Made by a program: the position numbers and the translations under genes. From Zobellia uliginosa (GTDB lineage: Bacteria; Bacteroidota; Bacteroidia; Flavobacteriales; Flavobacteriaceae): a DNA stretch of 64,000 nt. This document shows positions 20,327 to 59,671 of the stretch, piece after piece. The stretch is from assembly GCF_018860745.1 (NCBI RefSeq), contig NZ_JAHKPY010000002.1, positions 558,001-622,000 on the forward strand, written 5' to 3'. Every line of letters starts with the position of its first letter. The stretch's first letter is position 1. The notes beneath the pieces were generated by a model. The model had not been told where the DNA came from. It did not search any database and was given only the letters and a program-made list of their open reading frames with translations.

Positions 20327-20331
20327 CCAGA

Positions 20332-21786: not shown

Positions 21787-21826
21787 TGTTATTTAAATTT
21801 TAGTTTGATAATGATTTGAAATAGAA

Positions 21827-23071: not shown

Positions 23072-23083
23072 AACAGGTTAGTA

Positions 23084-24133: not shown

Positions 24134-24409
24134 TTATTTTGACTAAATATCAGAAGAGACAATCGTGCCTACTTCATGGGTTTTGGTATAGGTTTGATTT
24201 TGATGACAAACAAATATTACCCATAATGGAAACTTCTGATATCAGCACTTAATAAAACACCATTGGTTAAGGCCATTTGATTAAGAATTAATTAAAAATC
24301 AGTTTATTCAATTACTATTTAAATCCATTTTAGATAAAGGATTTAAGTTTAAAATCTTTAATATAAATTTACAACTTCACTAAGTATTATCAAAAAAACG
24401 AGCGCTATT

Positions 24410-33675: not shown

Positions 33676-35031
33676 TCATGTAGTAACCCCTGTCTTTTTA
33701 CTTTCCTTAAACGTAAAATAAAACATAATGACATTTTTCAATATTACAACTACGGTTGTACAAATAGCTATTCCTAGAATACCATAATACTGAATGAGAA
33801 TATAGTCCAGTATAATATTTAGAACTAAAGCTCCAAAGGAAACATAAGCCATAAATGCGTTTTTATTAATACTTGTTAAAAAATTCACATTTATCGTTCC
33901 TGCTATAGTAAAGGGAATATATACTAAAAAGATTTTTTGAATGTTCGAAACCACTTTCGTATCTTCTGCGGTAAACTCTTTTCTTTGAAAGAAAAATTCA
34001 ACAAAGAAATCAGTAAAAATAATTCCCAATATCGCAAAAACAGCACCTCCCCAAAATGTAATTTTCATCATTTTAAACACCGTTTCAAAAGATTTTCCTC
34101 GATTGTTAAGCACTAATTTCGAAAAATAGGGTAATAATACATTTGTAATAGCTATGGCCAAAAGACCGATCAAAAAGGCGGGCATTTTTTTTCCATAATT
34201 AATGGCGGCAATTGAACCTAGGACTAATTGCGCAGCAAAATATTGGTCTACAACACCATTCATTCCTGTTAGAAAACCAGATGAAATTTTAGCGGGCAAT
34301 TGTGCAAACATAAGCCTGGCGTTGGAACTCTTTAAATTTGGTTTAGATAGTTTTAGGATTTTCTTTTTCAGACAGAGTACTAGATAATACAAAAAACATA
34401 GTATGGACCCAAACAAAGTACCAAAAGCTAAGACCAAATTACCGAACACATCCCTATATAAAAACAGACAAGCTATTATAGAAATAGGCACGAACACACT
34501 ACCGTAAGAAGAATATTTGTATTCTCCATATATATTTAGCATACCACTTAGCAAAGAAGAAAACCCCCAAATCACAATACATGGAAGAAGATAGCGAAAT
34601 TGACTTTTAATCATACTATAGTATTCTTGGGTATGACCAGCGAAGAAATTTTCCACATAAGTATCGGTAAACACAAAGGCAATTATCATAAATAGAACAG
34701 ACACTAAGCCTGTTACCAAAAAACCAGTAGTTTGAAAAGAAGATATGCTATTTGTAGTTTTTAATTCTGCAACATAACTAGGTATAAAAACATTTTTAAA
34801 AGCACCCAAAAATACAGTATCGATAAACCCTGGAACAAGTGAAGCAATAAAAAATGTATCCAAAATTTCAGAAAGGCCAAAGTTTGCAGCAACCACCGAT
34901 TCTTTATAGAAACCAATGAATTTTATCAATAGAGTTGCAATACCAACAGTAAGTATATTCTTAACAACTTGATTTTGAAATAAAGCTTTTGCATTGAAAT
35001 TTTTGAAAAAGCTTTTAATTTTATTTATCAT
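33676..35031 (-). CDS. MurJ/MviN-type lipid flippase acting as Wzx
   Basis: The product is a 451-residue polytopic membrane protein of the MOP superfamily. The N-terminal GFYKESVVAANFGLSEILDT, LVPGFIDTVFLGAFKNVFIP and the later TGMNGVVDQYFAAQL segments look like MurJ rather than the usual O-antigen Wzx (PST family). It would move the undecaprenyl-linked repeat across the inner membrane. It ends at 33676, far from the polymerase, and its start is 10 bases downstream of a GT4 stop. As the only flippase in the locus it is the likely Wzx. Confidence 0.85.
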   Translation of the reverse strand: MINKIKSFFKNFNAKALFQNQVVKNILTVGIATLLIKFIGFYKESVVAANFGLSEILDTFFIASLVPGFIDTVFLGAFKNVFIPSYVAELKTTNSISSFQTTGFLVTGLVSVLFMIIAFVFTDTYVENFFAGHTQEYYSMIKSQFRYLLPCIVIWGFSSLLSGMLNIYGEYKYSSYGSVFVPISIIACLFLYRDVFGNLVLAFGTLFGSILCFLYYLVLCLKKKILKLSKPNLKSSNARLMFAQLPAKISSGFLTGMNGVVDQYFAAQLVLGSIAAINYGKKMPAFLIGLLAIAITNVLLPYFSKLVLNNRGKSFETVFKMMKITFWGGAVFAILGIIFTDFFVEFFFQRKEFTAEDTKVVSNIQKIFLVYIPFTIAGTINVNFLTSINKNAFMAYVSFGALVLNIILDYILIQYYGILGIAICTTVVVILKNVIMFYFTFKESKKTGVTT

Positions 35032-36502: not shown

Positions 36503-37759
36503 ATGATTGAGAAACGTTTTGTTGTGATTTTGGTTTTGTTGTGTATTTTCAAGTTGTCCGGACAAACTGTAAAAATTTCAGACTTCGGTTTTGATGCTTT
36601 TGATTCTACAAAACATATTTATGATGCTATTTTATCAGAAAACGATACTGTCATTTTTGATAAGCAGCATACGCAGTGGATAACAGGCCCATTACTTTTT
36701 AATCAGTTGAAAAACAAAGTGTTGGTTTTTGAGGAAGGCGTCATGCTATGCGCTAAGGAAGGAGGTTTTGTTAAAACTACGGATGCTTTAATGGAATTTC
36801 GTAATTCACATAATGTCATAATTATAGGAAACTCCGCTATCTTGCAAATGAATAAGAAAGAATATACTGATGGGGAGTGGAGACATTGTATCAGCCTAAG
36901 AAGTTGCACCAGTATAAATATTTCCAATTTAACACTCAAAGATTCAGGGGGAGATGGTATTTATATAGCGGGAAGTAAAAAAGGCGAATTTTCGGAAAAC
37001 ATTCAAATTGAAAATATAGTATCGGATAATAATAAGAGACAGGGAATGTCGATTGTTAGTGCCAAGAATGTGACTATTAAAAATAGTATTTTCAAAAATA
37101 CCAAAGGAACCCTTCCAGAAGCTGGGGTAGATGTAGAACCAAATTCAAAACTTGATCGTATTCAGGGTATTCGCTTTTACGACTGTACATTTGTTGAGAA
37201 TAACCATGCGGGTGTTGTTCTTGCATTGCATAATTTAGAAAGTGATTCCGCTCCAGTTGATATTGAATTTGTTAATTGCGTAGTAGAAAATAATCATGAT
37301 AAAGGCAATAAATATATAGCGAGCGAATTAATCTTCAATGCCCATAAAACCAACCCTGTAAAAGGTAAGGTTGTTTTCGAGAATTGTTTGATAAAAAATT
37401 CAAAATGGGGTCTTTTCTATAGTAGGAAGACTGTTGAAGCCTACAATGTTACTTTTAAAAATTGTTCTGCTTTGAATATTTGTAAAGACGGATCATATCC
37501 ACCTATTTATTTGGAAGTGCCAGATTATTACAAGGGTAGTTATCAATTAGGAGGTTTTATTTTTGATAATTTAACACTACAATACAATGCTAATGTACCC
37601 TACATGTCAATAAGGGGCTCGACGCTACCCACGTTAAAAAATGTTTCTAGTATTTCAGGCGATATAACATTGATAAGTACCCAAGAACCTAAAGTGGAAT
37701 ATATAAAATATAGTGGTTCCAATAATATTGATGTAAATATTAATATTACCCAAGAATAA
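36503..37759 (+). CDS. Exported right-handed parallel beta-helix protein
   Basis: The product is a 418-residue periplasmic or secreted protein with a signal peptide (RFVVILVLLCIFKLSGQ) and no lipobox. The mature part is a pectate-lyase-like beta-helix with many Asn-rich turns. Landmarks are LKDSGGDGIYIAG near 150, NNKRQGMSIVSAKNVTIKN near 175 and EAGVDVEPN near 208, which together could form a catalytic groove. It matches the C-terminal 395 residues of the 1241-residue lipoprotein at 45024 from end to end. It is the only plus-strand gene in this arm. A lyase, epimerase or hydrolase of the locus polymer is inferred; no catalytic residues are proven. Confidence 0.8.
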   Translation: MIEKRFVVILVLLCIFKLSGQTVKISDFGFDAFDSTKHIYDAILSENDTVIFDKQHTQWITGPLLFNQLKNKVLVFEEGVMLCAKEGGFVKTTDALMEFRNSHNVIIIGNSAILQMNKKEYTDGEWRHCISLRSCTSINISNLTLKDSGGDGIYIAGSKKGEFSENIQIENIVSDNNKRQGMSIVSAKNVTIKNSIFKNTKGTLPEAGVDVEPNSKLDRIQGIRFYDCTFVENNHAGVVLALHNLESDSAPVDIEFVNCVVENNHDKGNKYIASELIFNAHKTNPVKGKVVFENCLIKNSKWGLFYSRKTVEAYNVTFKNCSALNICKDGSYPPIYLEVPDYYKGSYQLGGFIFDNLTLQYNANVPYMSIRGSTLPTLKNVSSISGDITLISTQEPKVEYIKYSGSNNIDVNINITQE

Positions 37760-37812
37760 AACGAGTCCTAATCTGACTTTACAACTCTAATTAGAATACT
37801 TATTTGACAGGT

Positions 37813-39423
37813 CTATTTCAGTTTAAGATATTCATTGAAATACCTGCGGCCTAATTCTCTTTGACCTGCAGCATCATAGTGAATATAATCTACCTCATCA
37901 TCACCTTGTTTCACAATAGTTGATGGATATGATGGATTTGCAAACCCTACAATGTTTACTCTGTTAACTGTGTCTGCCAATAATTGTTGATGTGTTATTC
38001 TCTCAGGTTTTGTATTGACCCAGAAAGGTACCATTCCGCCAAGAATAAAGGGTGTGCTAATTTGTTTAAGGTCGGTTCTTACATCAGAAATAAATTGGTC
38101 TAAAGTATTGGCAAAATTTTTGTTGTATACATCGTTTTCCCCTTGATGCCACAATATTACTTTTAAACTACTTGATGGATATTTCTGCAGTACATGCGTA
38201 ACTCTTTCAATCATGTCATTGTACAGGAGGTCACCCTTGTTCCAATCACCATCTTTAAAACCTGTGCTGTTTTTCCCACAAGGAATAATTAGTATTTCCC
38301 TATTGCTGTTAAGAAGTTGATTTTTATAAAGTTTAGCAAAAGTTAAACCGAAACCAATTTTACCAGTGCTTCTGGTGTGATGATCTAATGGTTCGACGGC
38401 ATCAACGATTTTATAATCATTACCGTTGTTTCTTCCAAATTGATTGATTCTATCCTCACTTGCGTCAAGAGTTGAGTTATATCCCGTTCCTCCGTGAGTA
38501 TTGGATTGCCCTGCAATTAAAATAATATCATAACCGAACTCTTCGGTTTCTGGAGTAATTTCTTCTGATGGTTCTTCATTAGTTGGCACTTGTTCGCTTA
38601 TCACATCGTCTTCAATATCTTCATCAATATCTTTTTCAGCCTCATTTTTCTGAATTTCTTCTTCTTCTTCTTCTTCTTCTTCTTCTTCTTCTTCTTTTTC
38701 TTCCTCTTTTTCTTCTTCCTCTTTTTCTTCTTCGAAATTCTCCTCAGTATCATTGTTCACCAATTCATCCTTTAATTCACCTTCATACGTCACCCACAAT
38801 TTCGGACTAGTTTCTGGCGAACTCTCTTTTGAATTTACCAGAATTTCATTTCCTTCTGAAAGAGCAAGAATAAATGTATTTTCGTTCTTATTAAGTTTTG
38901 AAACATTAAGATCAATGAATCTTTTGTTATTTTGTTGAGATATTTCCTCCGATATATTTATTATTTCTCCGATTTCTGGTAAAACTATTGAATCAAGATT
39001 AATTTCATTCCAAATAGGTGAGTCTCCTTTGATAATATTTATTTTACCATCACCGAATTCGCCAATTATGGATAATTCCAAAGTGGCCGTTAAAATGGTA
39101 TCTTTAATTCTGTCTAAATTAAACTTAATATAGCCAAGATTTTCTTGTTGTTCTAATATGATAATTGTATCATTTACTCCTTGTTTCCCGGATAAGTATA
39201 TGTCATCGGTAGGGGTAAAGGCAAACTGACTATAGATTATGGAGTCTTGTACTTCCTCAGGAGCAGATACATTATCCTCAACCGTTATCAATCCTATTGC
39301 ATCCGCTAAGTCTTCTTCTTCTTTACTACATGAAATTACAATAACTGAGACTATAGCAACAAACAATAGCCTAAAAAGTAGTTTATGCTTTTTGAAAATA
39401 TGTATTGAATGGGATGAAATCAT
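37813..39423 (-). CDS. Lipoprotein with DNRLRE-like module, Glu-rich stalk and SASA/CE6-type esterase domain
   Basis: The product is a 536-residue surface lipoprotein with the modified Cys at residue 32 (VIVISCSKEEE). Residues about 62-215 form a beta-sandwich resembling DNRLRE/CBM96 modules and match the N-terminal module of the protein at 45024. Residues 228-278 are a Glu-rich stalk, encoded in part by 13 GAA codons in a row. Residues about 297-536 are a sialate-O-acetylesterase/CE6-like SGNH domain, with IAGQSNTHGG (Ser307), WHQGEND (425-431) and DYIH (Asp512, His515). It would remove O-acetyl groups from extracellular glycan. It is transcribed toward the convergent beta-helix gene. Confidence 0.82.
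   Translation of the reverse strand: MISSHSIHIFKKHKLLFRLLFVAIVSVIVISCSKEEEDLADAIGLITVEDNVSAPEEVQDSIIYSQFAFTPTDDIYLSGKQGVNDTIIILEQQENLGYIKFNLDRIKDTILTATLELSIIGEFGDGKINIIKGDSPIWNEINLDSIVLPEIGEIINISEEISQQNNKRFIDLNVSKLNKNENTFILALSEGNEILVNSKESSPETSPKLWVTYEGELKDELVNNDTEENFEEEKEEEEKEEEKEEEEEEEEEEEEEIQKNEAEKDIDEDIEDDVISEQVPTNEEPSEEITPETEEFGYDIILIAGQSNTHGGTGYNSTLDASEDRINQFGRNNGNDYKIVDAVEPLDHHTRSTGKIGFGLTFAKLYKNQLLNSNREILIIPCGKNSTGFKDGDWNKGDLLYNDMIERVTHVLQKYPSSSLKVILWHQGENDVYNKNFANTLDQFISDVRTDLKQISTPFILGGMVPFWVNTKPERITHQQLLADTVNRVNIVGFANPSYPSTIVKQGDDEVDYIHYDAAGQRELGRRYFNEYLKLK
38656..38694. repeat. (TTC)13 trinucleotide microsatellite in the esterase stalk
   Basis: Thirteen uninterrupted TTC units (GAA on the coding strand) encode 13 Glu in a row, with further imperfect TTC/TTT units on both sides. 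Slippage in whole triplets would change stalk length without breaking the reading frame. Confidence 0.9.
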
Positions 39424-39543
39424 GAAAAGGTAGGTTAATTAAAAGAGTACCATAATTTGGAGAGGTACTTATCTTTTAATTAAACGTTCAATATGCGGTA
39501 ATTAGTCAATTTTTTCGTTAAACGGTGCCGTTAATTGTAATTT

Positions 39544-39556
39544 TCGATGAAGTGAC
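39544..39556. promoter_or_regulatory. Copy of the shared TCGATGAARTG motif upstream of the esterase lipoprotein
   Basis: TCGATGAAGTGAC lies 121 bases before the start codon at 39423. It reads on the plus strand while the gene is on the minus strand, the same arrangement as upstream of the lipoproteins at 40243 and 45024. Confidence 0.5.
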
Positions 39557-39625
39557 ATTTCTCTTAACATTAAAAGCTTTTTATAGAGTAGACATTTCGT
39601 AAAAAAAGAAGATAGAGCGTATCGA

Positions 39626-40168
39626 TTAGCCCTTTAAAATATAATTGATATAATCTTCCGTTGGATTTTCCTTCGCAATAATTTGGGCAGGATTACCAAT
39701 TACTAATGAATTTTCAGGTACATCAGAATTGACAAAAGAGTTTGGAGCAATTAGAACATTGTTACCAATTTTTATATTTCCCGCAATAACAGTACCTGTT
39801 CCAATCCATACCTCGTTACCAATAATTGGAGACCCTTTACGTTTCCCTCTATTGGTTTGCCCAATGGTAATTGAATGAGATAGATTACAGTTATTTCCTA
39901 TTACAGCTTTTTCGTTAATCACGATCATTCCAAAATGACCCAAATAAAGACCATGACCAATTTTGGTTTTAATAGGAATTTGAATACCATATTTATAACG
40001 AAGTTTTTTCAGGACATATCGGTAATATATTCCTGATATGGAGAATCTTTTTTTGGAAGCCGCTTTTCTGAAGTAATATGTAAATTTAAAACCCTCGGAT
40101 TTAAAACCTTTTCTTATACTAGATTCTCCTTTATATCTGTATAAATCGTATTTAATATGATGCTCCAT
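39626..40168 (-). CDS. Left-handed beta-helix acetyltransferase, CysE/serine acetyltransferase-like
   Basis: The product is a 180-residue hexapeptide-repeat acyltransferase. The repeats start near residue 70 (KIGHGLYLGHFGMIVINEKA) and continue through IGNNCNLSHSITIGQTNRG, IGNEVWIGTGTVIAGNIKIG and APNSFVNSDVPENS, ending in VIGNPA. The LSHSITIGQ stretch carries a conserved His of the SAT group. In polysaccharide loci this type O-acetylates sugars from acetyl-CoA in the cytosol. It lacks the N-terminal Rossmann domain of PglD, so it is not a clear bacillosamine N-acetyltransferase. It sits between two lipoprotein genes. Confidence 0.82.
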   Translation of the reverse strand: MEHHIKYDLYRYKGESSIRKGFKSEGFKFTYYFRKAASKKRFSISGIYYRYVLKKLRYKYGIQIPIKTKIGHGLYLGHFGMIVINEKAVIGNNCNLSHSITIGQTNRGKRKGSPIIGNEVWIGTGTVIAGNIKIGNNVLIAPNSFVNSDVPENSLVIGNPAQIIAKENPTEDYINYILKG

Positions 40169-40242
40169 TATGGATTTTCAAATTATTATTAAGGACTATA
40201 GCTTTCTTGTCGTTACAACTTAATTAAATATACTGGTTAATT

Positions 40243-42081
40243 TTATTCTTGGGCCAAATATTCTAAGAATATTTCTAGGTTTGTATATCCATCGTTGTTA
40301 ACATCCTTTTTGCCATCCGTAGAATCGGTAGGGTCTAAGCCAACTGAGGTTTCCCACTCATCGTCCATTCCATCTTTATCTGAATCTTGATATGCTTCAC
40401 CACTTTTTAAGTTGGGGTAGCCAACGTCGGATACATTTATAAGCATGCCTCCATTTCTATTTATTACGTTTTGTACAACTCTCTCGTCCGAAGAATCTCT
40501 ATTGGGTTTGGATGCCCCTACATTTGCTAATACAGTACTTTCGACTTCAGATGATTGCATGGGGTTAATTCCTGAATTGAAAACAGGTGTGTTCTGTAGA
40601 TAAGGGTTAATATTAGACGATATTTTTGCAGAATTACCGTCTAAAGTATTATCATGAATATAACCTTGAGTGCCTGAAATATTACCATCGGGACAGTTAT
40701 TTAATGAAGCGGTTAGTTGAATAACAGTTTCATTTACACTAACATTAGGATTTGATTTGTAAACATTACCAATAATATCAAATTGATTTTCATAAGTAGG
40801 GTAGGTAGCATCTTTAAAACCGTACACAAGGTTGTTTATCATCTCAAAGCTAGAGGTACAAGTCGAAGACCTTATGTTACGTTCCATATTATGAACAAAG
40901 AGGTTTTTATAAACACTTATATTATTTGCTCGATTCCATAGGATTAATCCGAATTTGTGACTAGTTGAAATATTCTCTCCAACAATACTATTTTGTATGG
41001 TTATATTACGAACATTGCTTGTCCCACCTATTCCACCCATTTCAACGATTTCATCTTTTCCCCAACTCAAGCTACAATGATCAATTATAACGTTTTCTGT
41101 TGTAGTATTATTGAAGGCTATGATTCTAAGAGCATCTTCATTAGAACCTGTAGTTTGCTCACCAGGTCTGATTCTAATATGTCGTACAATAACGTTAGAC
41201 GCCATTATTCTAAATTCAGCACCTTTAATGGCAATACCATCTCCTGGAGCGGTTTGTCCTGCTATGGTTACATTTCCGTTACCGTTGCTAATTTGGAGGT
41301 ATGAATTACACTCTATTGTGCCTGAGACCTTAAAAATAATGGTACGAGGTCCTTCAGCCAATAAAGCGGCTCGTAGACTTCCATTTCCAGAATCATTAAG
41401 GTTGGTAACCTCTATAATTTTTCCACCTCGTCCACCAGTTGCAAATTTACCAAATCCTTCTGCTGAAGGAAACGCTTTTAAATTTTCATATTTTTTATTG
41501 AAAAAGATGGTTACTTTGCCTTCTTCAGTTTTAATTTCTCCTTTTTCATCAGTGGTCTTCACAGTATAAGTGAATGTGTCTTCCTCTTCGTTAGTTTTGT
41601 CATCAAACGTTATCGTTTCGGTTTCTTCTTCGGCTGTTTCTGGTTCCTTAATAGTACTCTCAGTTTGCGCTGATTCCTCTTCGGTTATGTCAGTATTGTT
41701 CTCTTGTGTGGTTTCATTTTCATTGCTTTCTTCGGTATTAACCTCTTCGTTATTATTTCCGGTAGTTATGATATAGGTTAAAGTATTATCTGGGTTAATC
41801 TGTACTGTTCCATTTTTTGGTTGCGAAGTTTCTACGATTTGTACTTTATCGGTATCAATAAAAGTATCATTATCCAATACATCTAAAACAATAGAGCTGT
41901 TTCCGTTTAAATTGTAACTATCGTTAATGAGATATTCACTATAGTTATTAAGACTGCTTTCTCCATCTTGGACGACATAGCTTGCTAATAAATCTACATC
42001 TTTTGAACAAGATGCGGTTAGCAAAAAAAAAGCAAAAGATAGTAGTACTCCTTTTGAGGGAGATATGGTTGTGCAGTGCAT
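40243..42081 (-). CDS. PL1-like (pectate lyase family) lipoprotein
   Basis: The product is a 612-residue surface lipoprotein with Cys25 in FLLTASCSKD. Residues about 50-195 look like a cadherin/Ig-like (Big_9-type) module interrupted by an acidic Glu/Thr-rich insertion. Residues about 203-560 form a right-handed beta-helix of polysaccharide lyase family 1 type, opening AFPSAEGFGKFATGGRGG, with VIVRHIRIRPGE and VIIDHCSLSWGKDE. The C-terminus has two Asp/Asn-rich calcium-type loops, DSDKDGMDDEWE (566) and DVNNDGYTNLE (593). Family members cleave uronate-rich glycans by beta-elimination, which fits a locus that makes UDP-GlcA and possibly UDP-GalA. Substrate inferred. Confidence 0.8.
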   Translation of the reverse strand: MHCTTISPSKGVLLSFAFFLLTASCSKDVDLLASYVVQDGESSLNNYSEYLINDSYNLNGNSSIVLDVLDNDTFIDTDKVQIVETSQPKNGTVQINPDNTLTYIITTGNNNEEVNTEESNENETTQENNTDITEEESAQTESTIKEPETAEEETETITFDDKTNEEEDTFTYTVKTTDEKGEIKTEEGKVTIFFNKKYENLKAFPSAEGFGKFATGGRGGKIIEVTNLNDSGNGSLRAALLAEGPRTIIFKVSGTIECNSYLQISNGNGNVTIAGQTAPGDGIAIKGAEFRIMASNVIVRHIRIRPGEQTTGSNEDALRIIAFNNTTTENVIIDHCSLSWGKDEIVEMGGIGGTSNVRNITIQNSIVGENISTSHKFGLILWNRANNISVYKNLFVHNMERNIRSSTCTSSFEMINNLVYGFKDATYPTYENQFDIIGNVYKSNPNVSVNETVIQLTASLNNCPDGNISGTQGYIHDNTLDGNSAKISSNINPYLQNTPVFNSGINPMQSSEVESTVLANVGASKPNRDSSDERVVQNVINRNGGMLINVSDVGYPNLKSGEAYQDSDKDGMDDEWETSVGLDPTDSTDGKKDVNNDGYTNLEIFLEYLAQE

Positions 42082-42539
42082 AAGTAGGAGTTGTTTAGTC
42101 AGAAAAACAGCTTTGGGAACTATTTATCTAGCTTTGTTTCATCATTCTTCTCTATGAAAATTTTTGTTCATTCATCTTACTTTTGAATCAATTGAACGAA
42201 TTTTGTTTTATAACTCCATCAGAGTTTTGTTTGTTGCTTACTAAGCTCTTTTTTAGATGAACTGCACTATACCTAATTGTGATTATCGATGAAGTGTGTT
42301 AAAATAATGTTTTGAGGTAATGTAAAGCATTGATCACTTAGTGAAAATAGAAGAGTTTGGCGTTAAGTTAGTTTTTGTGTTAAGAAGATTAAAAATAGAT
42401 ACCATAGAACATGGACCTGAACTATTCAGGTGGAGTTTTAAACTATCTGTGTAGGAAAGCTTGTATTAGCAAAAATAGTTTTTCAAGAGGTTTTAGGGAG
42501 CTTATAAAATAAAATCGTAGACCTGTTATTTGTATTGAT
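42082..42539. other. 458-base intergenic region upstream of the PL1-like lipoprotein
   Basis: No gene is supported. It contains TCGATGAAGTGTG at 42286-42298 and a degenerate copy TAGATGAACTGCA at 42254-42266, both about 175-215 bases before the start at 42081. The remaining AT-rich sequence shows nothing I can name. Confidence 0.5.
42254..42298. promoter_or_regulatory. Two copies of the shared TCGATGAARTG motif upstream of the PL1-like lipoprotein
   Basis: One full copy (42286-42298) and one with two changes (42254-42266) start 32 bases apart, both reading on the plus strand opposite to the gene. Confidence 0.5.
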
Positions 42540-43322
42540 TTAATTGTGTTCGTTTAGGAATTGAAATATCTGATTAGCAATAAGCTCATTCCCTTCCTTT
42601 GTATAATGTCCATCAGAAAAACGATATTTATCTCCAATGTGTAATTCAATAATAGGCTGATTCACACCATTTTTAATAAGTGACTTTTTGGTTAGGTTGT
42701 CATGAACCAAATACACAACATTATCCAAATCAGATTCAAATAGTTCAAAGTTGGGCTGTGAATAGAATTTAGGGCCATTAAGTTTTTGGTTGATTAAATT
42801 AACGATTTTAAAAGAGGATTCCTGTTTTTTATTTACCTGTTTCTTGTAAACTAAATCGTTAGTCCCGCTTATTAGTATAAAAACTAGTTTAGCTTCTTTT
42901 AAATCATAGGTTTTATAAATGTCATTGTATGTATTTAGATTTCCGCCGCTAGCTCCAAAATTAAAAACTTTTGCATCAATTGTTTCATCTAATAAGTAAG
43001 CGATTGAATTGTATGTACCACAAATTTCTGATTTCACGAATGAATCACCAACTAATGCATAATTTTCGCTTAATTCATTAGTTTCAAAATCAATGTGAGA
43101 ATAAAAACCCAAATTATTTATATTTAATCTTATTTTCTCTCCATTTGGATTATAGCCAATAGAATCATTTTTATTTGCAATAGATGGAGTAGTAAAGACC
43201 CGCTTAATATCTGCTGTAAATTGCCTGACACTAAAAATAGGGGAGGTGAGGCCTTGAAAGCATTCAAAAACTACAATGAATAATAAGAGGAAAACAAAAC
43301 TATTGAGTATTAATTTCTTCAT
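42540..43322 (-). CDS. SGNH-fold O-acyltransferase partner (pair B)
   Basis: The product is a 260-residue protein with an N-terminal signal anchor (LILNSFVFLLLFIVVFECF) and a periplasmic SGNH hydrolase fold. Block I is ALVGDSFVKS (Ser near residue 93), block III is LISGTNDLVY, and the Asp-His pair is in FSDGHYTKEGN near residue 236. It is shorter than its pair A counterpart and not closely similar outside the motifs. It starts 2 bases after the MBOAT stop, so the two are coupled. It likely transfers an acyl group to a different position or sugar from pair A. Confidence 0.78.
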   Translation of the reverse strand: MKKLILNSFVFLLLFIVVFECFQGLTSPIFSVRQFTADIKRVFTTPSIANKNDSIGYNPNGEKIRLNINNLGFYSHIDFETNELSENYALVGDSFVKSEICGTYNSIAYLLDETIDAKVFNFGASGGNLNTYNDIYKTYDLKEAKLVFILISGTNDLVYKKQVNKKQESSFKIVNLINQKLNGPKFYSQPNFELFESDLDNVVYLVHDNLTKKSLIKNGVNQPIIELHIGDKYRFSDGHYTKEGNELIANQIFQFLNEHN

Positions 43323-43324
43323 GA

Positions 43325-44752
43325 TTAAAATTGAAAGTATATAAAATCTGTTTGAACAACACCAAAATATAGTACCACATGGAAGAGTAGAAAAATGTAA
43401 AATAAAATCCTAATAATTTTATATTTTGAAATAGTAGATAATCTTTCATCTTTTCTCAAAAACCATTCTATAATTATGAATACAAGACAGTAGCCCACAC
43501 CTTGAAGTTTTGAACTGGGTAATTGAATTTCAATAAACATTTTTTTTATGTACAAAAAAGCATTTGAAATAGTATCGCTACGAAAGAATACCCAAGCAAT
43601 AACAACAAAAAAATAAGTAACACTAATCTCAATGAACTCTTTTATAGACGGTAGAAATTTATTTTGGGCAACAATACCTCCTACATATTTTCTATTTAGA
43701 TCAAAGTAAAATAATGGAACATATAATAAAGCATGTATAAAACCCCACATTAAAAAAGTCCAATTTGCACCATGCCAAAAACCACTAACCAAGAAGATGA
43801 TAAATATATTTTTTAGAGATTGCCATTTACCCCCTTTTGACCCACCTAACGGTATATATAGGTAATCTCGAAACCAAGTTGACAGTGAGATATGCCATCT
43901 TCGCCAGAATTCACCAATATTTCTTGAGAAATAAGGAAACTTGAAATTAGACATTAGCTCAAAACCAAATAACTTAGACGTACCTATGGCAATATCTGAA
44001 TACCCACTAAAATCACAATATATCTGAAAGGAAAAATAAATAGCACCGAGCCATAGTGTTCCTCCATCATAGTCTTGATAGTTTGCAAATATATCGTTAG
44101 CCCTTGGGGCTAAAGAATCTGCGATTACAACTTTTTTAAACATTCCGTACAAGATCAACCGAAGGCCTTGAACAGATTGTTTATAATCGAATTTTCTTTT
44201 ATTTAGAATTTGAGGTAATAAGTTTGTTGCTCTCTCTATAGGACCTGCTACTAATTGGGGGAAAAATGCAACAAAAGAGGCAAAGCCTATAAAATCTGAT
44301 GTAGCTTTTAAATTCTTTCTATAGATGTCTATTGTGTATGACATTGTTTGAAAGGTATAAAATGAAATACCAACTGGTAAAATTATGTTTATAGTCCATC
44401 TATTTGCCGGGGAGAAACCTAACTCCATCAACAACTCCATTAAGGAATCAATAAAAAAATTGAAGTATTTAAATACGGCAAGAACGCCAATATTAAAAAG
44501 AATACTTACCCAAAGATAAATTTTTTGTTTAGACGGTTTGAGCTCGTTTTGGACTTTTAAACCTATAAAGAAATCAACTAAAGTGGATAGCAAGATTAAA
44601 AATAGGAAGCGATAGTCCCACCACCCATAAAACACATAAGAACTAACTAGTATCACTAAATTTTGCGCCTTTAAATTAACCTTAAAAAGAAGCCAATATA
44701 AAACGTAAACTATGGGAAGAAATATTAAAAAATCATTTGAGTTAAAAAGCAC
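43325..44752 (-). CDS. MBOAT-family O-acyltransferase, AlgI-like (pair B)
   Basis: The product is a 475-residue polytopic membrane protein similar to the MBOAT at 20332 throughout (MLFNSNDFLIFLPIVYVLYW against MLFNSLDFLIFLPVVFILYW at the start). It has STWFRDYLYIPLGGSKGG and SGFWHGANWTF with the invariant His near residue 320. It carries an acyl group across the inner membrane for its SGNH partner. The pair looks like a duplicated module whose SGNH half diverged faster. The 271 bases separating it from the stop of the next gene show only a weak hairpin. Confidence 0.9.
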   Translation of the reverse strand: MLFNSNDFLIFLPIVYVLYWLLFKVNLKAQNLVILVSSYVFYGWWDYRFLFLILLSTLVDFFIGLKVQNELKPSKQKIYLWVSILFNIGVLAVFKYFNFFIDSLMELLMELGFSPANRWTINIILPVGISFYTFQTMSYTIDIYRKNLKATSDFIGFASFVAFFPQLVAGPIERATNLLPQILNKRKFDYKQSVQGLRLILYGMFKKVVIADSLAPRANDIFANYQDYDGGTLWLGAIYFSFQIYCDFSGYSDIAIGTSKLFGFELMSNFKFPYFSRNIGEFWRRWHISLSTWFRDYLYIPLGGSKGGKWQSLKNIFIIFLVSGFWHGANWTFLMWGFIHALLYVPLFYFDLNRKYVGGIVAQNKFLPSIKEFIEISVTYFFVVIAWVFFRSDTISNAFLYIKKMFIEIQLPSSKLQGVGYCLVFIIIEWFLRKDERLSTISKYKIIRILFYIFLLFHVVLYFGVVQTDFIYFQF

Positions 44753-44944
44753 AGAATTCTAATTTTTTTAGAAATGTAAAGATATACTTTCAAAGAATAA
44801 CGAAAGGGTTTAACTTATTTATTTCCTACTTACCAATTAAATAAATGGCAATAGGGGTAGAATGCAATTTAACTTACTTTCTCATTCTTAAAATTGGCTA
44901 GGTAAATTTTTTATTTTCACCTTATTTGAAAACAAAATGCAAAT

Positions 44945-44971
44945 AACGCCTAATATAAGCCTATAGGTGTT
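44945..44971 (-). terminator. Possible weak terminator after the large PKD/beta-helix lipoprotein gene
   Basis: The arms AACGCCTA and TAGGTGTT pair over 8 bp with one G-T wobble. On the minus strand they are followed by a T-rich stretch. It lies about 50 bases past the stop at 45024. Confidence 0.3.
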
Positions 44972-45023
44972 AATTACATTTCGTTTTCGCAAGTACTATG
45001 AATTATTTGAGGGTATTTACAAT

Positions 45024-48000
45024 TTAATCGATATGATTGTAAGAAATGTTGACATTTACATTCGTACTCGATTTATAACCGTGTCCATAGGTTAATGGAT
45101 TATCATTAGGTTCTTTAACCGTAAAAGAGCCTTGAATATCCTTTACAGTATGATTTGTATTTGGAGCATTGATATTCATAAAAGGAAGGTTTACGTTATA
45201 CTCTAGGTAAAAATTATTAAATTCAAAATTACCTGTAGTTGTGTCTGCTCCTAGCGCCTCTAGTTCGATAATATAATTTGAACTAGAAATATTATAGGCG
45301 GAACAGTCTTTAAATATAACTTTAAAAGCATCAGCAGCTTTTTTTGCTTTGATTATCCGAGATTTACTTCCGTTGAATTTTAGATTGGTGAAAGTAGCCG
45401 TTCCTTTAACAGGGTTGCTATGATCTCCTTGGAGAATCATAAGTTCTGCATCACTTACTCCTGAAGAAGAAGATTTTGTATTATTACTGAACGTACAACT
45501 ACTTAAATTAACCGAAATAGGAGTTGATGAACTGGTAAGTTTGCCAACTGAAATTAGGAAGCCATGACTGTCATTGTTAGAAAATTTGCAATTACTAAAA
45601 TTTATATTTACCAGTCGTTCACTGGCGTCATTTGGTTCTAAGTCAACTCCAGACTCTGGGTCTGCACCATTAGACCCATTGAATTCTGAATTTTTAATCC
45701 AAACATCCTCTGCACTGATGATACTAAGCCCTTGTCTGCGATTATTTTCACATGTAATATTGTCTAATGTAATATTTTTTGAATAATTGGCATTATAACC
45801 GCCCGCAATATACATGCCATCGCCTCCACTGTCTTTTAGAATTAAATCCTTAACGGTAATATTGTTCCCTCCGTCGATAGAAAACGCGTGTCTGTTTTCC
45901 ATACTATTGTATTCTGATTTAATCATTTTAAGTTCTGCATTATTCCCCTCTATTTTGATATTCTCAGCGGCAACTAGTTGAAATAATATACTACTAGATG
46001 CAGAGAATGCTCCAGATTTGGCCCTCAAGGTTACTCCAGACTCAAATACTATTGTCATATCTTTAAGTCTAAACAGTTTTAAGGGTTTAACAATCCAGTC
46101 TGAGCTTTGTTTGTCAATGACCACATACGAACTTCCTGAGGTTAACGCTTTATAGACAGCATCCGTTCCATCACTAGAGTTAAATCCAAAATCAGATGCG
46201 AAAACAGCATTTGAAGGGTAGTTTCCAGAGCTTCCGCCAGTATCTCCACTTCCAGTGTCTCCTCCACCAGTGTCACCACCACCTGTATCTCCACCGCCAG
46301 TGTCACCACCACCAGTATCTCCGCCACCGTTGTCCACAGGTCTTTCATTCACTTTTACATCAATAGTTGTGGCATGGGTCAGTCCATCTTTATCTTTTAC
46401 AGAAAGTTCTACTTTGTAAGTTCCCGGATTAGCAAAATCGTGGGAAGGGTTTTTATTTGTTGTTGTAGAACCATCATTAAAATCCCAGAAATACCCTGTA
46501 ATGCCTGTATCATCAGTAGAGTTATTGGCACTAAATTGAACATTCAAGGGGGCATACCCTGTTAAAGGTGTACCAGAAGCTACCGCCACAGGAGCTTCAT
46601 TTTGGGTTTCGGTGATGGTAATGGTTATAGTTTCAGAATCTTTTAACCCTTCCTCATCAGTAACTGTCAATACCACATTGTACGTACCTTTGCTTTTGAA
46701 TGAATGCGAAGGATTTGAACTTGTAGCGGTACTACCATCCTTAAAGTCCCAAAAGTAGTTTTTTACAGCTTTATCGTCAGTAGAACCATTGCCTTTAAAT
46801 TGAATTTCCAACGGAGCTTCTCCTTCAGTAACATTTGCAGATGCATTTGCGTTAGGAGCTTCGTTTTCTGTTTCGGTAATTGTGACCGTAATAGTTTCGG
46901 AATCTTTTAGTCCCTCTTTATCTGTAACAGTTAAAACAACATTATATGTGCCTTCTGCATTAAAAGAATGGGAAGGATTGCTGCTGGTTGCAGTACTACC
47001 ATCTTTAAAGTCCCATGAATAGGATGTAATAGCCTTGTCGTCCGTAGAATCGCTGCCTTTGAACTGTATTTCCAAGGGAGCTTCCCCTTTTGTAATATTT
47101 GCAGAGGCTTTTGCATTAGGAGCAGCGTTTTCTGTTTCAGTAATTGTAATGCTAATGGTTTCAGAGTCTTTTAGTCCTTCTTCATCAGTAACCGTTAAAA
47201 TAACATTGTATGTTCCTTTTGCTTTAAAGGAATGAGAAGGGTTGCTACTGTTTGCCGTACTACCATCTTTAAAATCCCATAAATAAGATTTAATAGCTTT
47301 GTCATCCGTAGAATCGCTGCCTTTGAACTGAATTTCCAAAGGAGCTTCCCCTTTAGTAACATTTGCAGATGCATTTGCATTAGGGGCACTGTTTTTCTTA
47401 GCTTTTACTGTAATAGTAGTTTCTTCGGTATCAATTTTCCCTTGAGCATCTTGCACTGTCAGGCTTACTTTATATGTACCCGCTTTTTCAAATGTGTGAG
47501 AAGGATTTGCTTGATTGGAAGAATTACCATCGCCAAAATTCCAACCATAGTTTTTAACCTCTTGATCATCACTAGAATTATTACCCGTAAAACTAACTTT
47601 AAGTGGTGCAGTTCCCGAAGAAGGGGCAGCATCTACTGCTGCAATAGGAGATTGGTTTTCAACAGGATTGGTTACAGGGGGTTTAATTTCATCTTCCTTA
47701 GGAGTCTCTACCGGTGTTTCCTCTTCCTCCTCTTCTTTAGGAGTTTCAACTTCTTCCTCTGTCTCTTCCTTAGGAGTCTCTACTGGCGCTTCCTCTTCTT
47801 CTTTAGGAGTTTCAACCTCTTCCTCTGTTTCTTCTTTAGGAGTCTCTACTGGCACTTCCTCTTCCTCCTTAGGAGTTTCAGCTTCTTCTTCTTCTTCTTC
47901 TTCTTCTGTTTCTTCTACTTCGTTTGGAGTTTCTGTCTCTTCAGCGGTTTCATCTTGATTTTCTTCGTCGGATATAGGCTCTGGCTCAGAAGTGATTATC

Positions 48001-48749
48001 GAGATGTTTTCGTTTTCTTGAATTATAGCTTCAGCATCTTGTGGAGCACTGTAGGTAACCACAAGTTTTGGTCCTTCTTTTGTGTCATGCTCTTTTGATG
48101 CAAATGCTAAATCATTACCGTCTTCATGTTTAAGTACCAAGGTAATTACTTCTGTTCCTACCTTTTCTTCATCTAAAATGATTTCGTGAGTCTGATTGAT
48201 TTGAAAAATTTTATTTGTGGAACCTAATAATGTGTCAGATTGTGGTGCCGTAATCTCCGTAATGCTATGTTCGGACCAATCTGTAGATTCTCCTTTTAGT
48301 ATAGATATGGTTCCATGACCGTCGTCATTACTAATCGTAAATTCAAAATGAATCTCTTCTAAACTCCCACCAATAGAATCGATTTGACTTAAATCGAACA
48401 TAAGATAGCTTTCTCTATTCCCCTCTTCCAAACGAATCAAATCTTGATTGTATCCTTTGCCACTTTGTAAATGTGCGTCATGTATAGGAGTGAAGACCGT
48501 AGTTCTCGTTTCGAATATTATATCTGCAATGATTTCCTCTTCTATCAAGACTTCTTCTTCCAGAACTTCTTCTTCTGTCAATTCTTCCGAGGCATTTTTG
48601 CTATCTGCATCCTTAACTACCTTAGAAGGTTCGTTTAAGACTGCATCCTTTAGTAGTTCAGTATCTTTAGTACAGGATATTATTACAATTAGAAAAGCAA
48701 GTGCAAACCAGATAAAAGATTTGTTTGGGGTAGTGGTGCTAAACTTCAT
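45024..48749 (-). CDS. 1241-residue modular lipoprotein: DNRLRE-like module, Glu-rich repeats, five PKD domains, C-terminal beta-helix
   Basis: A large surface lipoprotein with Cys26 in IVIISCTKD. Layout: acidic segment 50-75; DNRLRE/CBM96-like beta-sandwich about 80-235, related to the esterase at 37813; Glu-rich stalk 260-355 with 22-residue ETPKEEEE-type repeats; PKD1 about 367-449; near-identical PKD2-4 at 454-539, 542-627 and 630-715; PKD5 about 718-800; GGGDT linker 808-838; right-handed beta-helix about 845-1241. The beta-helix keeps KDSGGDGMYIAG, NNRRQGLSIISAEDVW and ESGVDLEPN, shared with the free protein at 36503. It would hold a glycan-binding or glycan-active head far from the cell. 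Function inferred; enzymatic activity is unproven. Confidence 0.85.
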   Translation of the reverse strand: MKFSTTTPNKSFIWFALAFLIVIISCTKDTELLKDAVLNEPSKVVKDADSKNASEELTEEEVLEEEVLIEEEIIADIIFETRTTVFTPIHDAHLQSGKGYNQDLIRLEEGNRESYLMFDLSQIDSIGGSLEEIHFEFTISNDDGHGTISILKGESTDWSEHSITEITAPQSDTLLGSTNKIFQINQTHEIILDEEKVGTEVITLVLKHEDGNDLAFASKEHDTKEGPKLVVTYSAPQDAEAIIQENENISIITSEPEPISDEENQDETAEETETPNEVEETEEEEEEEEAETPKEEEEVPVETPKEETEEEVETPKEEEEAPVETPKEETEEEVETPKEEEEEETPVETPKEDEIKPPVTNPVENQSPIAAVDAAPSSGTAPLKVSFTGNNSSDDQEVKNYGWNFGDGNSSNQANPSHTFEKAGTYKVSLTVQDAQGKIDTEETTITVKAKKNSAPNANASANVTKGEAPLEIQFKGSDSTDDKAIKSYLWDFKDGSTANSSNPSHSFKAKGTYNVILTVTDEEGLKDSETISITITETENAAPNAKASANITKGEAPLEIQFKGSDSTDDKAITSYSWDFKDGSTATSSNPSHSFNAEGTYNVVLTVTDKEGLKDSETITVTITETENEAPNANASANVTEGEAPLEIQFKGNGSTDDKAVKNYFWDFKDGSTATSSNPSHSFKSKGTYNVVLTVTDEEGLKDSETITITITETQNEAPVAVASGTPLTGYAPLNVQFSANNSTDDTGITGYFWDFNDGSTTTNKNPSHDFANPGTYKVELSVKDKDGLTHATTIDVKVNERPVDNGGGDTGGGDTGGGDTGGGDTGGGDTGSGDTGGSSGNYPSNAVFASDFGFNSSDGTDAVYKALTSGSSYVVIDKQSSDWIVKPLKLFRLKDMTIVFESGVTLRAKSGAFSASSSILFQLVAAENIKIEGNNAELKMIKSEYNSMENRHAFSIDGGNNITVKDLILKDSGGDGMYIAGGYNANYSKNITLDNITCENNRRQGLSIISAEDVWIKNSEFNGSNGADPESGVDLEPNDASERLVNINFSNCKFSNNDSHGFLISVGKLTSSSTPISVNLSSCTFSNNTKSSSSGVSDAELMILQGDHSNPVKGTATFTNLKFNGSKSRIIKAKKAADAFKVIFKDCSAYNISSSNYIIELEALGADTTTGNFEFNNFYLEYNVNLPFMNINAPNTNHTVKDIQGSFTVKEPNDNPLTYGHGYKSSTNVNVNISYNHID
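46239..46328. repeat. 15-bp minisatellite encoding (GGGDT)5-GSGDT
   Basis: Six tandem 15-base units code for a Gly/Asp/Thr linker between PKD5 and the beta-helix. The unit is a multiple of three, so copy number could change without a frameshift. Confidence 0.85.
46605..47390. repeat. Three tandem 264-bp repeats encoding PKD2-PKD4
   Basis: The three 88-residue units differ at only a few positions (shared GEAPLEIQFKG, STDDKA, DFKDGSTA, GLKDSETI). The flanking PKD1 and PKD5 are clearly more divergent. This points to recent tandem duplication or gene conversion inside the gene. Confidence 0.9.
47691..47879. repeat. 66-bp tandem repeat encoding the Glu-rich stalk
   Basis: The 22-residue unit (ETPKEEEE-V/A-PVETPKEET-EEEV) occurs twice in full and a third time in part, as residues 291-353 of the large lipoprotein. 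Copy number could vary in frame. Confidence 0.85.
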
Positions 48750-49252: not shown

Positions 49253-50533
49253 TTATAAGCGTCCGTCCACTTCGCCTTTTAAAATGCTTTTAACATCATA
49301 TAATATCCCTTCTGGTTTTAAAGAATCCCTAAGATTAAGCGTTAGAAACTCCTTGTGGGCAACGGTCAATACTATAACATCAAATTTTTGTTCAGGTAAA
49401 GTAGATACCATATCAAGATTCAGTTCTCTTTTCACCTCCTCCTTGGAGGCCCATGGGTCATATATAGTTAAGTTGGTACTATAACTTTTTAGGTTGTTAG
49501 CAACATCAACAGCTTTTGTATTTCTGACATCGGGACAGTTTTCTTTAAAAGTAATACCAAGAATAAGAATGTTAGCTCCTTTTATCTTGATGTCTTTTTG
49601 AACCATGAGTTTAATTACTTCGGAAGCGACATATTTGCCCATACCGTCATTCATACGACGGCCAGCTAATATAATTTCGGGGTGATAGCCAAATTCTTGG
49701 GCTTTTTGAGCTAAATAATAAGGGTCAACTCCAATACAATGACCACCAACCAAACCTGGCTTAAAAGGAAGGAAGTTCCATTTGGTGCCTGCCGCCTCCA
49801 ACACAGCAGTAGTGTCGATTTCCATTAAATTGAAAATTTTAGCCAACTCATTAACAAAAGCGATGTTAATATCTCTCTGTGAGTTTTCAATAACTTTTGC
49901 AGCTTCTGCAACTTTAATAGTAGGTGCTAAATGAGTGCCTGCTGTAATTACTGAAGCGTAGAGATCATCTACTTTTTTTCCAATAGCAGGAGTAGAGCCT
50001 GATGTTACTTTAAGAATTTTTTCTACCGTATGTTCTTTGTCCCCTGGATTGATTCGTTCTGGCGAGTATCCCACGAAAAAATCCTTATTGAATTTTAAGC
50101 CGCTAACCCGTTCTAAAACTGGGACACACTCATCTTCGGTTACACCTGGGTAAACAGTAGATTCATAAATTACCAAATCACCCTTTTTCAAAACTTTCCC
50201 AACAGTCTCACTTGACTTGTACAGTGGGGTTAAAATAGGTCTATTGGTACTGTCAACCGGTGTTGGTACGGTAACTATGTAATAATTACAATCTGAAATG
50301 TCTTCTAATTTAGAAGTGCAATATAGACCTTTATCAAAATTAGGAGTTTTTTGCAGAACAGTATTTAAATCTTCATCACTTACCTCTAAAGTAAAATCCT
50401 TACCAGATTGAAGTTCTTCAATCCTTTTTTGATTGATGTCAAAACCAATAACAGGATATTTAGTAGCAAACAAACGTGCCAAGGGAAGGCCTACGTAGCC
50501 CAGACCGATTATTGCTATTTTTTGTGTGCTCAT
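49253..50533 (-). CDS. wbpA/tviB: UDP-N-acetyl-hexosamine 6-dehydrogenase, WbpA/TviB type
   Basis: The product is a 426-residue cytosolic NAD-dependent nucleotide-sugar dehydrogenase that oxidises UDP-GlcNAc or UDP-GalNAc to the uronic acid. The N-terminal Rossmann motif is IAIIGLGYVGLPLA, the internal catalytic segments are YSPERINPGDKEH and NSQRDINIAFVNELA, and the active-site cysteine lies in GGHCIGVDPYYL near residue 260. The length and the PERINPG motif fit the WbpA/TviB/WbpO clade better than UDP-glucose dehydrogenases. It is flanked upstream by a decayed WbpP/TviC-type epimerase, the usual partner. It ends in a strong terminator. Confidence 0.87.
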   Translation of the reverse strand: MSTQKIAIIGLGYVGLPLARLFATKYPVIGFDINQKRIEELQSGKDFTLEVSDEDLNTVLQKTPNFDKGLYCTSKLEDISDCNYYIVTVPTPVDSTNRPILTPLYKSSETVGKVLKKGDLVIYESTVYPGVTEDECVPVLERVSGLKFNKDFFVGYSPERINPGDKEHTVEKILKVTSGSTPAIGKKVDDLYASVITAGTHLAPTIKVAEAAKVIENSQRDINIAFVNELAKIFNLMEIDTTAVLEAAGTKWNFLPFKPGLVGGHCIGVDPYYLAQKAQEFGYHPEIILAGRRMNDGMGKYVASEVIKLMVQKDIKIKGANILILGITFKENCPDVRNTKAVDVANNLKSYSTNLTIYDPWASKEEVKRELNLDMVSTLPEQKFDVIVLTVAHKEFLTLNLRDSLKPEGILYDVKSILKGEVDGRL

Positions 50534-50618
50534 TATTTCTTTTTAATTTTAAATTATTCCTATACCAGTCCATTGCTGATTTTTGACCGGTACTTTTACT
50601 GTATTATGGGTTGTAGCC

Positions 50619-51420: not shown

Positions 51421-51478
51421 AAAATTTAATTTCGTTGTGTGACATTGATCATGGTATGAAAAGTAATAAAAATAAGAA

Positions 51479-51505
51479 GACTCAAATGTTTATTGAATTT
51501 GAGCC
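51479..51505 (-). terminator. Terminator-like hairpin after the UDP-glucuronate 4-epimerase gene
   Basis: On the minus strand the arms GGCTCAAAT and ATTTGAGTC pair over 9 bp with one G-T-type wobble and are followed by a T-rich tract. It lies 27 bases past the stop at 51532 and just before the pseudogene. Confidence 0.6.
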
Positions 51506-51531
51506 TTTTTAAATTTATGGTTGATGAATCA

Positions 51532-56861: not shown

Positions 56862-56865
56862 TCTG

Positions 56866-58797: not shown

Positions 58798-58819
58798 CTT
58801 TTTAATTCGTTATTATTGC

Positions 58820-59641: not shown

Positions 59642-59671
59642 AGTCTACAGTTACTCTATTAAATACATAAA

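Follow-up and report, generated by a model that had tools for sequence, protein, structure and literature searches.

Putative tagged and tethered depolymerases in a capsule locus of Zobellia

Four exported proteins in a capsule locus

The window analysed in this study, namely the whole 64-kb stretch G000:C10:558001-622000 within a 4.86-Mb Zobellia genome, contains a Wzx/Wzy-type capsule or exopolysaccharide (EPS) locus, which spans about 15.8 to 62 kb of the window. Wzc-like, Wza-like, CapD-like, DegT and precursor genes lie on one side of the locus and GT4/GT2, Bac_transf, ATP-grasp, FemAB/GNAT and MBOAT genes on the other; its centre is taken up by Wzy, Wzx and variable glycosyltransferases. 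Four genes for exported proteins are placed between wzx/wzy and the uronic-acid precursor genes, and a hexapeptide acetyltransferase gene and an MBOAT gene with a 260-aa partner are interspersed among them. Two of the four, a PL1-type lyase lipoprotein and a PKD/beta-helix lipoprotein, are the main subject here. The four proteins and their parts are as follows.

36503..37759, plus strand: secreted right-handed beta-helix protein, tail-fibre/tailspike-like, 418 aa (Beta_helix, E 1.8e-12)
37813..39423, minus strand: SASA-type esterase lipoprotein with a CBM96-like N-terminal module, 536 aa (SASA, E 1.1e-32)
39295..39330, minus strand: tag-like stretch after the lipidated Cys of the SASA protein (CSKEEEDLADAI), which fails the strict tag pattern
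40243..42081, minus strand: PL1-type lyase lipoprotein (tag, cadherin-like spacer, pectate-lyase-like head), 612 aa (NF041900, E 2.1e-50)
40402..41490, minus strand: variable PL1 head (from anchor/head identity comparisons and the head tree)
41974..42009, minus strand: PL1 tag C-S-K-D-V-D-L-L and following residues (pattern match 41987-42009, 0 expected in shuffles)
45024..48749, minus strand: lipoprotein with CBM96, a Glu-rich linker, 5 PKD domains and a beta-helix, 1241 aa
45027..46196, minus strand: variable beta-helix head of the PKD protein (from identity comparison with other Zobellia)
48639..48674, minus strand: PKD tag C-T-K-D-T-E-L-L and following residues (pattern match 48652-48674)

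An earlier note on this DNA, made from the letters alone, had described four exported proteins among O-acylation genes, two with a common CBM96-like module and two with a common beta-helix. All of this was confirmed at the above ORFs, with domains matched. The PKD protein contains five PKD_4 domains and Beta_helix, and its beta-helix shares 38% identity with the free one across 391 aa. The N-terminal stretch common to the SASA and PKD proteins has 27% identity over 237 aa (E 2e-16, signal region included); CBM96 (PF24517) is matched in the PKD protein (E 1.9e-10; 41.2 bits vs a cut-off of 26), and in the SASA protein the match stays below cut-off (E 0.0033; 17.7 bits). A lipobox was found in three of the four proteins, namely SASA (by eye), PL1 and PKD; none was found in the free beta-helix protein, which has a signal sequence.

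By sequence, the PL1 protein is assigned to the pectate lyase superfamily PL1. Its match to the PelZ-type pectate lyase NF041900 (171.8 bits) is far under the equivalog cut-off of 840, no Pfam lyase family was matched, and the spacer matches Cadherin_4 (E 5.6e-9). In a profile search the nearest PDB sequences of the head were the pectate lyase 9buj (E 5.3e-57) and VexL (6fi2; E 7e-22). The stretch IDHCS...DE aligns with 9buj, and D334, H335 and R401, presumably the pectate-lyase active site, are unchanged in 8 capsule-locus members.

For the beta-helix, the profile had a single match among PDB sequences, the tail fibre gp22 of crAss001 (7qoj; E 6.5e-25 over 149 positions), with which the core GDG, RQG and D-x-E-P is conserved; GGDG, RQG and D-x-E-P are unchanged in 22 beta-helix proteins from several phyla. 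The best match in PHROGs is phrog_14824 (function unknown; E 6e-29), and the tail spike phrog_2234 is matched at E 2e-7. A Pareuzebyella copy (L071:16355-18232, 626 aa) ends in a type IX secretion sorting domain (E 6.6e-6; 26.8 bits, cut-off 27), which points to export outside the cell. Another relative (L095:4977-6173) is located on a viral contig next to terminase and DNA methyltransferase genes.

The lipoprotein tag and its distribution among genomes

The PL1 and PKD lipoproteins have the tag C-[ST]-K-D-x-[DE]-L-L after the lipidated Cys in common, despite their different spacers. We searched it as a DNA pattern, with the backward pattern as control. In the nine Zobellia genomes (the window's own and eight others) there were 17 matches, 16 of which are PL1 or PKD lipoprotein genes, while the backward control gave 3; the seventeenth has no in-frame lipoprotein. 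In 309 family genomes, the pattern had 59 occurrences, spread over 48 genomes, and the backward control 32 (tallied by hand). It turned out that 38 in-frame tagged lipoproteins from 29 genomes could be identified, 12 places being left out (second codon not Ser/Thr) and 9 others having no in-frame tagged lipoprotein; 16 places (six Zobellia, ten others) were assigned to lipoproteins by position.

All of the identified tagged lipoproteins (38 of 38) are in polysaccharide-biosynthesis loci. At least one capsule-locus gene is present in the stretch for 36 of them (five with one only), and the other two (L218 and L219) lie among glycosyltransferase, AsnB-like, and exosortase- or WecB-like genes, named by eye. 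The tag was found in none of 31 PL1s outside capsule loci and in none of 3 uncertain ones. Within the scanned genomes, locus membership and restriction of the tag are both observed.

The heads on tagged lipoproteins are PL1, beta-helix and PF14099 Polysacc_lyase (3), and by matches below cut-off also Pect-lyase_RHGA/endosialidase-like (2) and chondroitinase-B-like (1). Besides, eight tagged lipoproteins (L208, L209, L215, L221, L222, L223, L226 and L235) have one head type in common, with a weak six-hairpin glycosidase/GH76 match below cut-off, and these may possibly represent a new enzyme class. A PDB sequence search with two other tagged proteins gave weak or irrelevant matches only.

The tag resembles, and appears to extend beyond, the lipoprotein export signal (LES) of Capnocytophaga canimorsus surface lipoproteins, which the excerpt of the published description gives as C-X-K-(D/E)2 (PMC5080379). 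C-S-K-E-E of the SASA protein fits this signal.

To summarize the co-occurrence, genes were counted in the capsule loci of the nine Zobellia genomes. The PL1 lipoprotein is present in 9 of 9 loci (two copies in G003, G006 and G008), the PKD/beta-helix lipoprotein in 6, the free beta-helix in 4 and the SASA lipoprotein in 1, that of the window. The earlier note had taken the four genes to go together and had raised their constant co-occurrence with the cluster in related genomes as a check; they are not a conserved set, and a fixed four-gene system was rejected. SASA homologues at E 1e-30 exist in 3 further of 397 family genomes, with about 50% identity in the catalytic part only; four of the nine Zobellia genomes belonged to this sample, and the remaining five were checked for SASA in locus stretches only.

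A search of contigs for the beta-helix gave no relatives with a single-protein query and 43 loci with an alignment query. The profile matched 20 of the 397 family genomes (E <= 1e-20). Among the 16 genomes with strong matches (E below 1e-70, a cut set after viewing the list), 14 have the gene in a capsule locus, including G080, assigned from glycosyltransferase genes at the contig end. In the four weaker genomes, the gene is in a capsule locus (G009 and G271), among sugar genes (G093) or outside (G281). The relatives in capsule loci include Euzebyella, Pareuzebyella, Cellulophaga, Winogradskyella, Robiginitalea and one Maribacter metagenome-assembled genome (MAG). In a Saprospiraceae MAG (L107) the beta-helix is outside a capsule locus, and distant relatives (about 30%) in other phyla are mostly outside capsule-type loci among the annotated ones.

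An iterated SusD profile had no match in the capsule stretches tested, while the same profile found SusD in 9 of 25 stretches around non-capsule PL1 genes, plus the reference. Lone SusC was found by blast in G004, G007, G005b and G026. With the SusC profile, TonB receptors (about 750 aa) also appeared beyond wzc in Zobellia stretches, and further receptors in those of G028, G093, G399, G219 and G275, none of them with SusD. The arrangement named in the earlier note as speaking against its idea, the same lipoproteins beside SusCD, did not appear in these stretches, and for them the reading as a utilisation locus was rejected on the blast searches and iterated profiles for SusC and SusD.

We also built a tree of 64 PL1 heads (the G241 row, a 169-aa segment, was dropped). 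Capsule-locus heads form two groups, a larger group (28 of 33 rows) and a pair, apart from 29 others; the larger group also holds 3 uncertain rows and 2 from elsewhere. The tree needs 5 changes between capsule and elsewhere labels, against a mean of 21.6 after shuffling, and none of 500 shuffles was as low. The PL1 head of the window is closest to Euzebyella (75%), not to any Zobellia.

Anchors and heads have separate histories

To compare the parts of the tagged lipoproteins, identity was calculated separately for the anchor, which holds tag and spacer, and for the head. The sharpest pairs are G006/G008, G001/G003 and window/G004 for PL1, and window/G002 and G001/G005 for the PKD protein. In PL1, anchor and head share 99% vs 41% identity in G006/G008, 87% vs 38% in G001/G003 and 89% vs 44% in window/G004. 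In the PKD protein the values are 87% vs 40% (window/G002) and 92% vs 52% (G001/G005), and compared with five other Zobellia species its head has 40-82% identity and its residues 1-236 have 71-87%.

For instance, along one PL1 of G006 and G008 the identity per 100 aa runs 98, 91, 47, 32, 26 and 61, and along the other PL1 it runs 99, 91, 98, 84, 63, 61 and 77. The genes between these two PL1s are tviB, an epimerase gene and a gene of unknown function, with 99%, 98% and 83% identity respectively. Within Zobellia as a whole, the anchor of the PKD protein exceeds the head by 10 or more points in 14 of 15 pairs and the reverse occurs in none, while for PL1 the anchor is at least 30 points above the head in 7 of 63 pairs and the head is above the anchor in 1. 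As a rule for all pairs, "constant anchor, variable head" was rejected on recount (24 of 63 PL1 pairs, 14 of 15 PKD pairs, frequent reversal across genera); what stands is that the two parts differ in their histories.

Mantel tests were then used to relate each part to other genes, with TviB identity as the measure of the genome backbone. Seventeen loci were listed, each test uses the loci with both genes, and the p values are uncorrected for the number of tests. Anchors follow the backbone: the correlation with TviB is r 0.67 for the PL1 anchor (p 0.0002, n=16) and r 0.89 for the PKD anchor (p 0.0006, n=8), compared with r 0.03 (n=17) and r 0.06 (n=9) for the respective heads. Heads co-vary with Wzy: with TviB held, r is 0.38 for the PL1 head (p 0.0036, n=15), 0.80 for the free beta-helix (p 0.005, n=7) and 0.69 for the PKD head (p 0.011, n=7), and with its own anchor held, the PL1 head still gives r 0.59 (p 0.0002, n=14). 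The anchors give r 0.13 (PL1; p 0.15) and -0.40 (PKD; p 0.86, n=6) with Wzy when TviB is held, the PL1 anchor giving r 0.31 (p 0.01) when it is not. The PL1 head is also correlated with Wzx (r 0.32, p 0.049, n=12); for scale, Wzy and Wzx themselves give r 0.46 (n=11). In sum, the recount weakened the wording of a constant anchor, and the added anchor controls strengthened the relation between head and Wzy.

Neighbouring genes, possible functions and known systems

Other features of the locus are listed below.

32116..33267, minus strand: wzy-like polymerase (Wzy_C, E 1.3e-10)
33676..35031, minus strand: wzx-like flippase of MurJ/MATE type (MurJ, E 1.5e-44)
39626..40168, minus strand: hexapeptide (CysE/EpsC-like) O-acetyltransferase (Hexapep, E 9.6e-11; EpsC, E 2.3e-31, below cut-off)
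42540..43322, minus strand: MBOAT partner, 260 aa, SGNH-like by weak similarity (no Pfam match)
43325..44752, minus strand: MBOAT O-acyltransferase (MBOAT, E 1.3e-27)
49253..53975, minus strand: uronic-acid precursor genes (TviB-like UDP-GlcNAc dehydrogenase, broken tviC remnant, epimerase, Ugd)
54348..62056, plus strand: conserved flank (epimerase/dehydratase, DegT, CapD-like, Wza-like, Wzc-like)

Genes for the uronic-acid precursors that a lyase needs are present in the locus itself. The TviB-type UDP-GlcNAc dehydrogenase scores 551 bits, just short of its cut-off of 592, and the Ugd match is likewise below equivalog cut-offs; given these two genes, the native polymer is expected to contain uronic acids. 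A TviC-type epimerase remnant (50534-51531, minus strand) is broken by frame changes and stops in the window; in sister species the frame at this place is open, and one sister carries a TviC-type epimerase (L031; E 3.7e-113, below its cut-off). This may mean that the uronic acid of this strain's polymer has changed. Wzc, CapD and Ugd share 79-98% identity between the window and its sisters. The 260-aa MBOAT partner has 28% identity over 132 aa to homologues of the AlgX-like protein at 19361.

FemAB/GNAT-type transferases, HAD and a second MBOAT/AlgX-like pair lie at 18127-25066 (minus strand), mostly conserved in sisters; together with ATP-grasp here and asparagine-synthase genes in sister loci, they suggest an amino-acid decoration of the polymer. 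A giant PKD-domain protein beside wzc (62417-64000, plus strand; homologues of 2039-2146 aa) is found at the same place in eight sister genomes, even those lacking the PKD/beta-helix lipoprotein. A GH3 fused to a beta-lactamase-like domain (9827-12739, plus strand) lies just beyond the locus edge. In Z. galactanivorans-type loci a DUF2264 protein (L057:17303-18784) adjoins the second PL1 in G006, and same-sized genes occupy its place in G003 and G008; it could process lyase products.

We consider it probable that the locus encodes a platform of tagged, tethered and head-swappable depolymerases acting on the cell's own capsule. Lipoproteins with the locus-specific N-terminal tag would be carried to the outer surface, where the spacer (cadherin-like, or CBM96 with Glu-rich linker and PKD stalk) would hold the head away from the membrane and keep a polysaccharide-cleaving domain within the uronic-acid-rich capsule. 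The heads may trim, release or reorganise the capsule, in this strain perhaps assisted by the esterase lipoprotein and the secreted beta-helix enzyme. When the capsule type switches, a new head would be taken up or the old one would diverge along with Wzy, the tag and spacer being kept with the rest of the genome. We infer that the lipoproteins are exposed on the surface, that their heads cleave, that the native capsule is what they cleave, and that the tag serves in export or docking. The proposal of the earlier note, that the cell edits its own capsule on the surface, survives as the best reading, supported by the locus association across genera, the lack of SusD matches in the capsule stretches tested, the separate PL1 grouping and the heads varying with Wzy as the anchors follow the backbone. 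The distribution of the tag, the precursor genes and the resemblance of the PL1 head to VexL also count in favour of the platform.

Several observations weigh against this explanation. Only 24 of the 63 PL1 pairs within Zobellia have the anchor at least 10 points above the head, and in comparisons between genera the head is often more conserved than the anchor (106 of 337 PL1 pairs; 17 of 51 PKD pairs). The free beta-helix and the PKD head are not significantly correlated with Wzx (r 0.35 and 0.23; p about 0.15), and because the heads adjoin wzy, part of the correlation may be block transfer. The strict tag is found in 19 of 30 capsule-locus PL1 rows of the tree (the dropped G241 fragment is also tagged), G028 has PL1 and beta-helix without tag, and the strong beta-helix relatives of G225 and G026 are outside capsule loci. 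CSKDVD of PL1 and CTKDTE of the PKD protein fit the LES at +3 and +4, and their +5 residue is not acidic. The PL1 gene zgal_3770 of Z. galactanivorans is, moreover, listed in a published study among polysaccharidases that fresh alga induces (PMC9296495); a function on algal tissue would agree with this as well.

Alternatively, the heads might be type-specific lectin anchors with no enzymatic role, which would keep the capsule attached to the outer membrane by binding it; we regard this as unlikely. The CBM96 module and long stalk would suit such tethers, as would the lectin-like behaviour described for WceF in the excerpt of PMC7949094, and type-specific heads are suited to holding as well as cutting. 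However, the constancy of D334, H335 and R401 in the capsule-locus PL1s, and of GGDG, RQG and D-x-E-P among the beta-helix proteins, is as for an active site. Somewhat less likely still is hitchhiking, in which the heads would move along with the variable part of the locus but be functionally unconnected to the polymer. They do lie on the variable side of the locus, with the anchors on the conserved side by coordinates, and they co-vary with wzy, but in G006/G008 the two PL1 heads diverge separately, with tviB and the epimerase nearly identical between them (the unknown gene less so), and the anchor/head break points are in different genes in different pairs.

Zobellia live on algae, and CBM96 has been linked to alginate, so the enzymes could be foraging for algal pectin- or alginate-like polymers and sit in the capsule locus by chance. 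In G006, which we take to be Z. galactanivorans DsijT, the distance from a PL1 gene at 4423665 to a GT4 gene at 4408188 is exactly 11 genes when ORFs of 130 aa or longer are counted; together with the zgal numbering, this puts zgal_3770 and the GT4 gene zgal_3759 probably in the capsule locus. The excerpt of PMC9296495 describes pelA1 (zgal_3770, PL1) as "outside classical PUL structures" (PUL, polysaccharide utilisation locus) and as induced with macroalgae, including Ascophyllum, in favour of foraging, but zgal_3759, counted to the same locus, is induced with macroalgae too, its authors relating GT4 genes to type IX secretion. The lack of SusD in the capsule stretches tested, the grouping of capsule PL1s apart from the untagged non-capsule ones and the co-variation of heads with Wzy also speak against foraging, which we think improbable. 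Captured or shared phage depolymerases, directed against competing strains or phage adsorption, seem very improbable. The beta-helix relatives in crAss001 gp22 and on the viral contig would favour them; yet the heads follow their own Wzy, and no phage structural genes were found among the annotated genes of the window (capsule genes; part of the window ORFs was scanned). For anti-phage defence families, PADLOC gave no match in 4 proteins.

Returning to the depolymerase platform, we tentatively extend it, at a little short of an even chance, to the family: the Flavobacteriaceae tag may be an address private to polysaccharide-biosynthesis loci, which places interchangeable glycan-cleaving heads where the capsule is exported; a change of capsule type would then bring a new head, joined on at the border between anchor and head. 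By sequence, the candidate heads are PL1, the tail-fibre-like beta-helix and Polysacc_lyase, with chondroitinase-B-like, endosialidase/RHGA-like and six-hairpin-like heads as weak cases. If true, this would be a cell-owned counterpart of the phage tailspike and a cellular parallel to its head-swapping, with a constant handle and a serotype-matched head, and capsule type and capsule-cutting enzyme would be a matched pair exchanged jointly. Depolymerases for many marine capsules that are still uncharacterised would then be available from genomes, with the tag as the means of finding them, and enzymes filed as pectate lyases of alga-degrading bacteria would be re-filed as capsule-editing enzymes. 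It would also offer a way into the question of how capsule length and shedding, and attachment to algae, are controlled in Bacteroidota.

Among known systems, AlgL-type trimming enzymes are depolymerases in a biosynthesis locus too, but these are soluble, periplasmic and of fixed specificity. VexL, the Vi-antigen depolymerase of Achromobacter denitrificans (PDB 6fi2), is a sequence relative of the PL1 head (E 7e-22), and a TviB-type precursor gene is also present in the Zobellia locus. VexL is said to be periplasmic and to belong to an ABC-transporter capsule, whereas the Zobellia locus is of Wzx/Wzy type, outside the ABC-transporter class, and its lyase is a tagged lipoprotein with a spacer. 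The excerpt of PMC9597891 describes VexL as a PL1-like lyase of a Vi-antigen producer. PL1 lyases of Sus-like utilisation loci have a related catalytic domain, but mostly belong to a different PL1 group, lack the tag and have SusD in 9 of 25 stretches.

The stewartan hydrolase WceF of Pantoea stewartii is a beta-helix enzyme of tailspike-like type, encoded inside a Wzy-dependent EPS cluster, a setting that it shares with the Zobellia genes. According to the excerpt of PMC7949094, it is trimeric and exported by Tat, has a head domain like that of P22 and acts on its own polymer, and mutants make longer chains; lipoprotein, tag and swapping heads are absent from the description there. WceF was not among the PDB sequence matches of the beta-helix profile (E up to 0.01, assuming that a WceF entry is present). 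The tail fibre gp22 of crAss001 has the same GDG, RQG and D-x-E-P core, but it is a phage virion protein, while the Zobellia beta-helix is encoded by a chromosomal capsule-locus gene with a signal sequence or lipoprotein stalk. In Maribacter dokdonensis 62-1, a PL12 lyase also lies within a flavobacterial EPS cluster, and its authors suggest a link between synthesis and degradation; in the excerpt of that report it is single, strain-unique, without predicted signal peptide and thought to be intracellular (PMC8072126).

The excerpt of PMC8073546 names PL1 among the genus-specific Zobellia lyases, without capsule mention there. A word search of titles and abstract starts, with subscription journals mostly outside, found no description of tagged or surface-tethered depolymerases in flavobacterial capsule loci. 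Own-capsule depolymerases have a precedent in WceF and VexL, so the kind is known; in conclusion, a depolymerase for the own capsule within the biosynthesis locus was already described, while the word search gave no earlier account of the tag, the tether or the head swapping.

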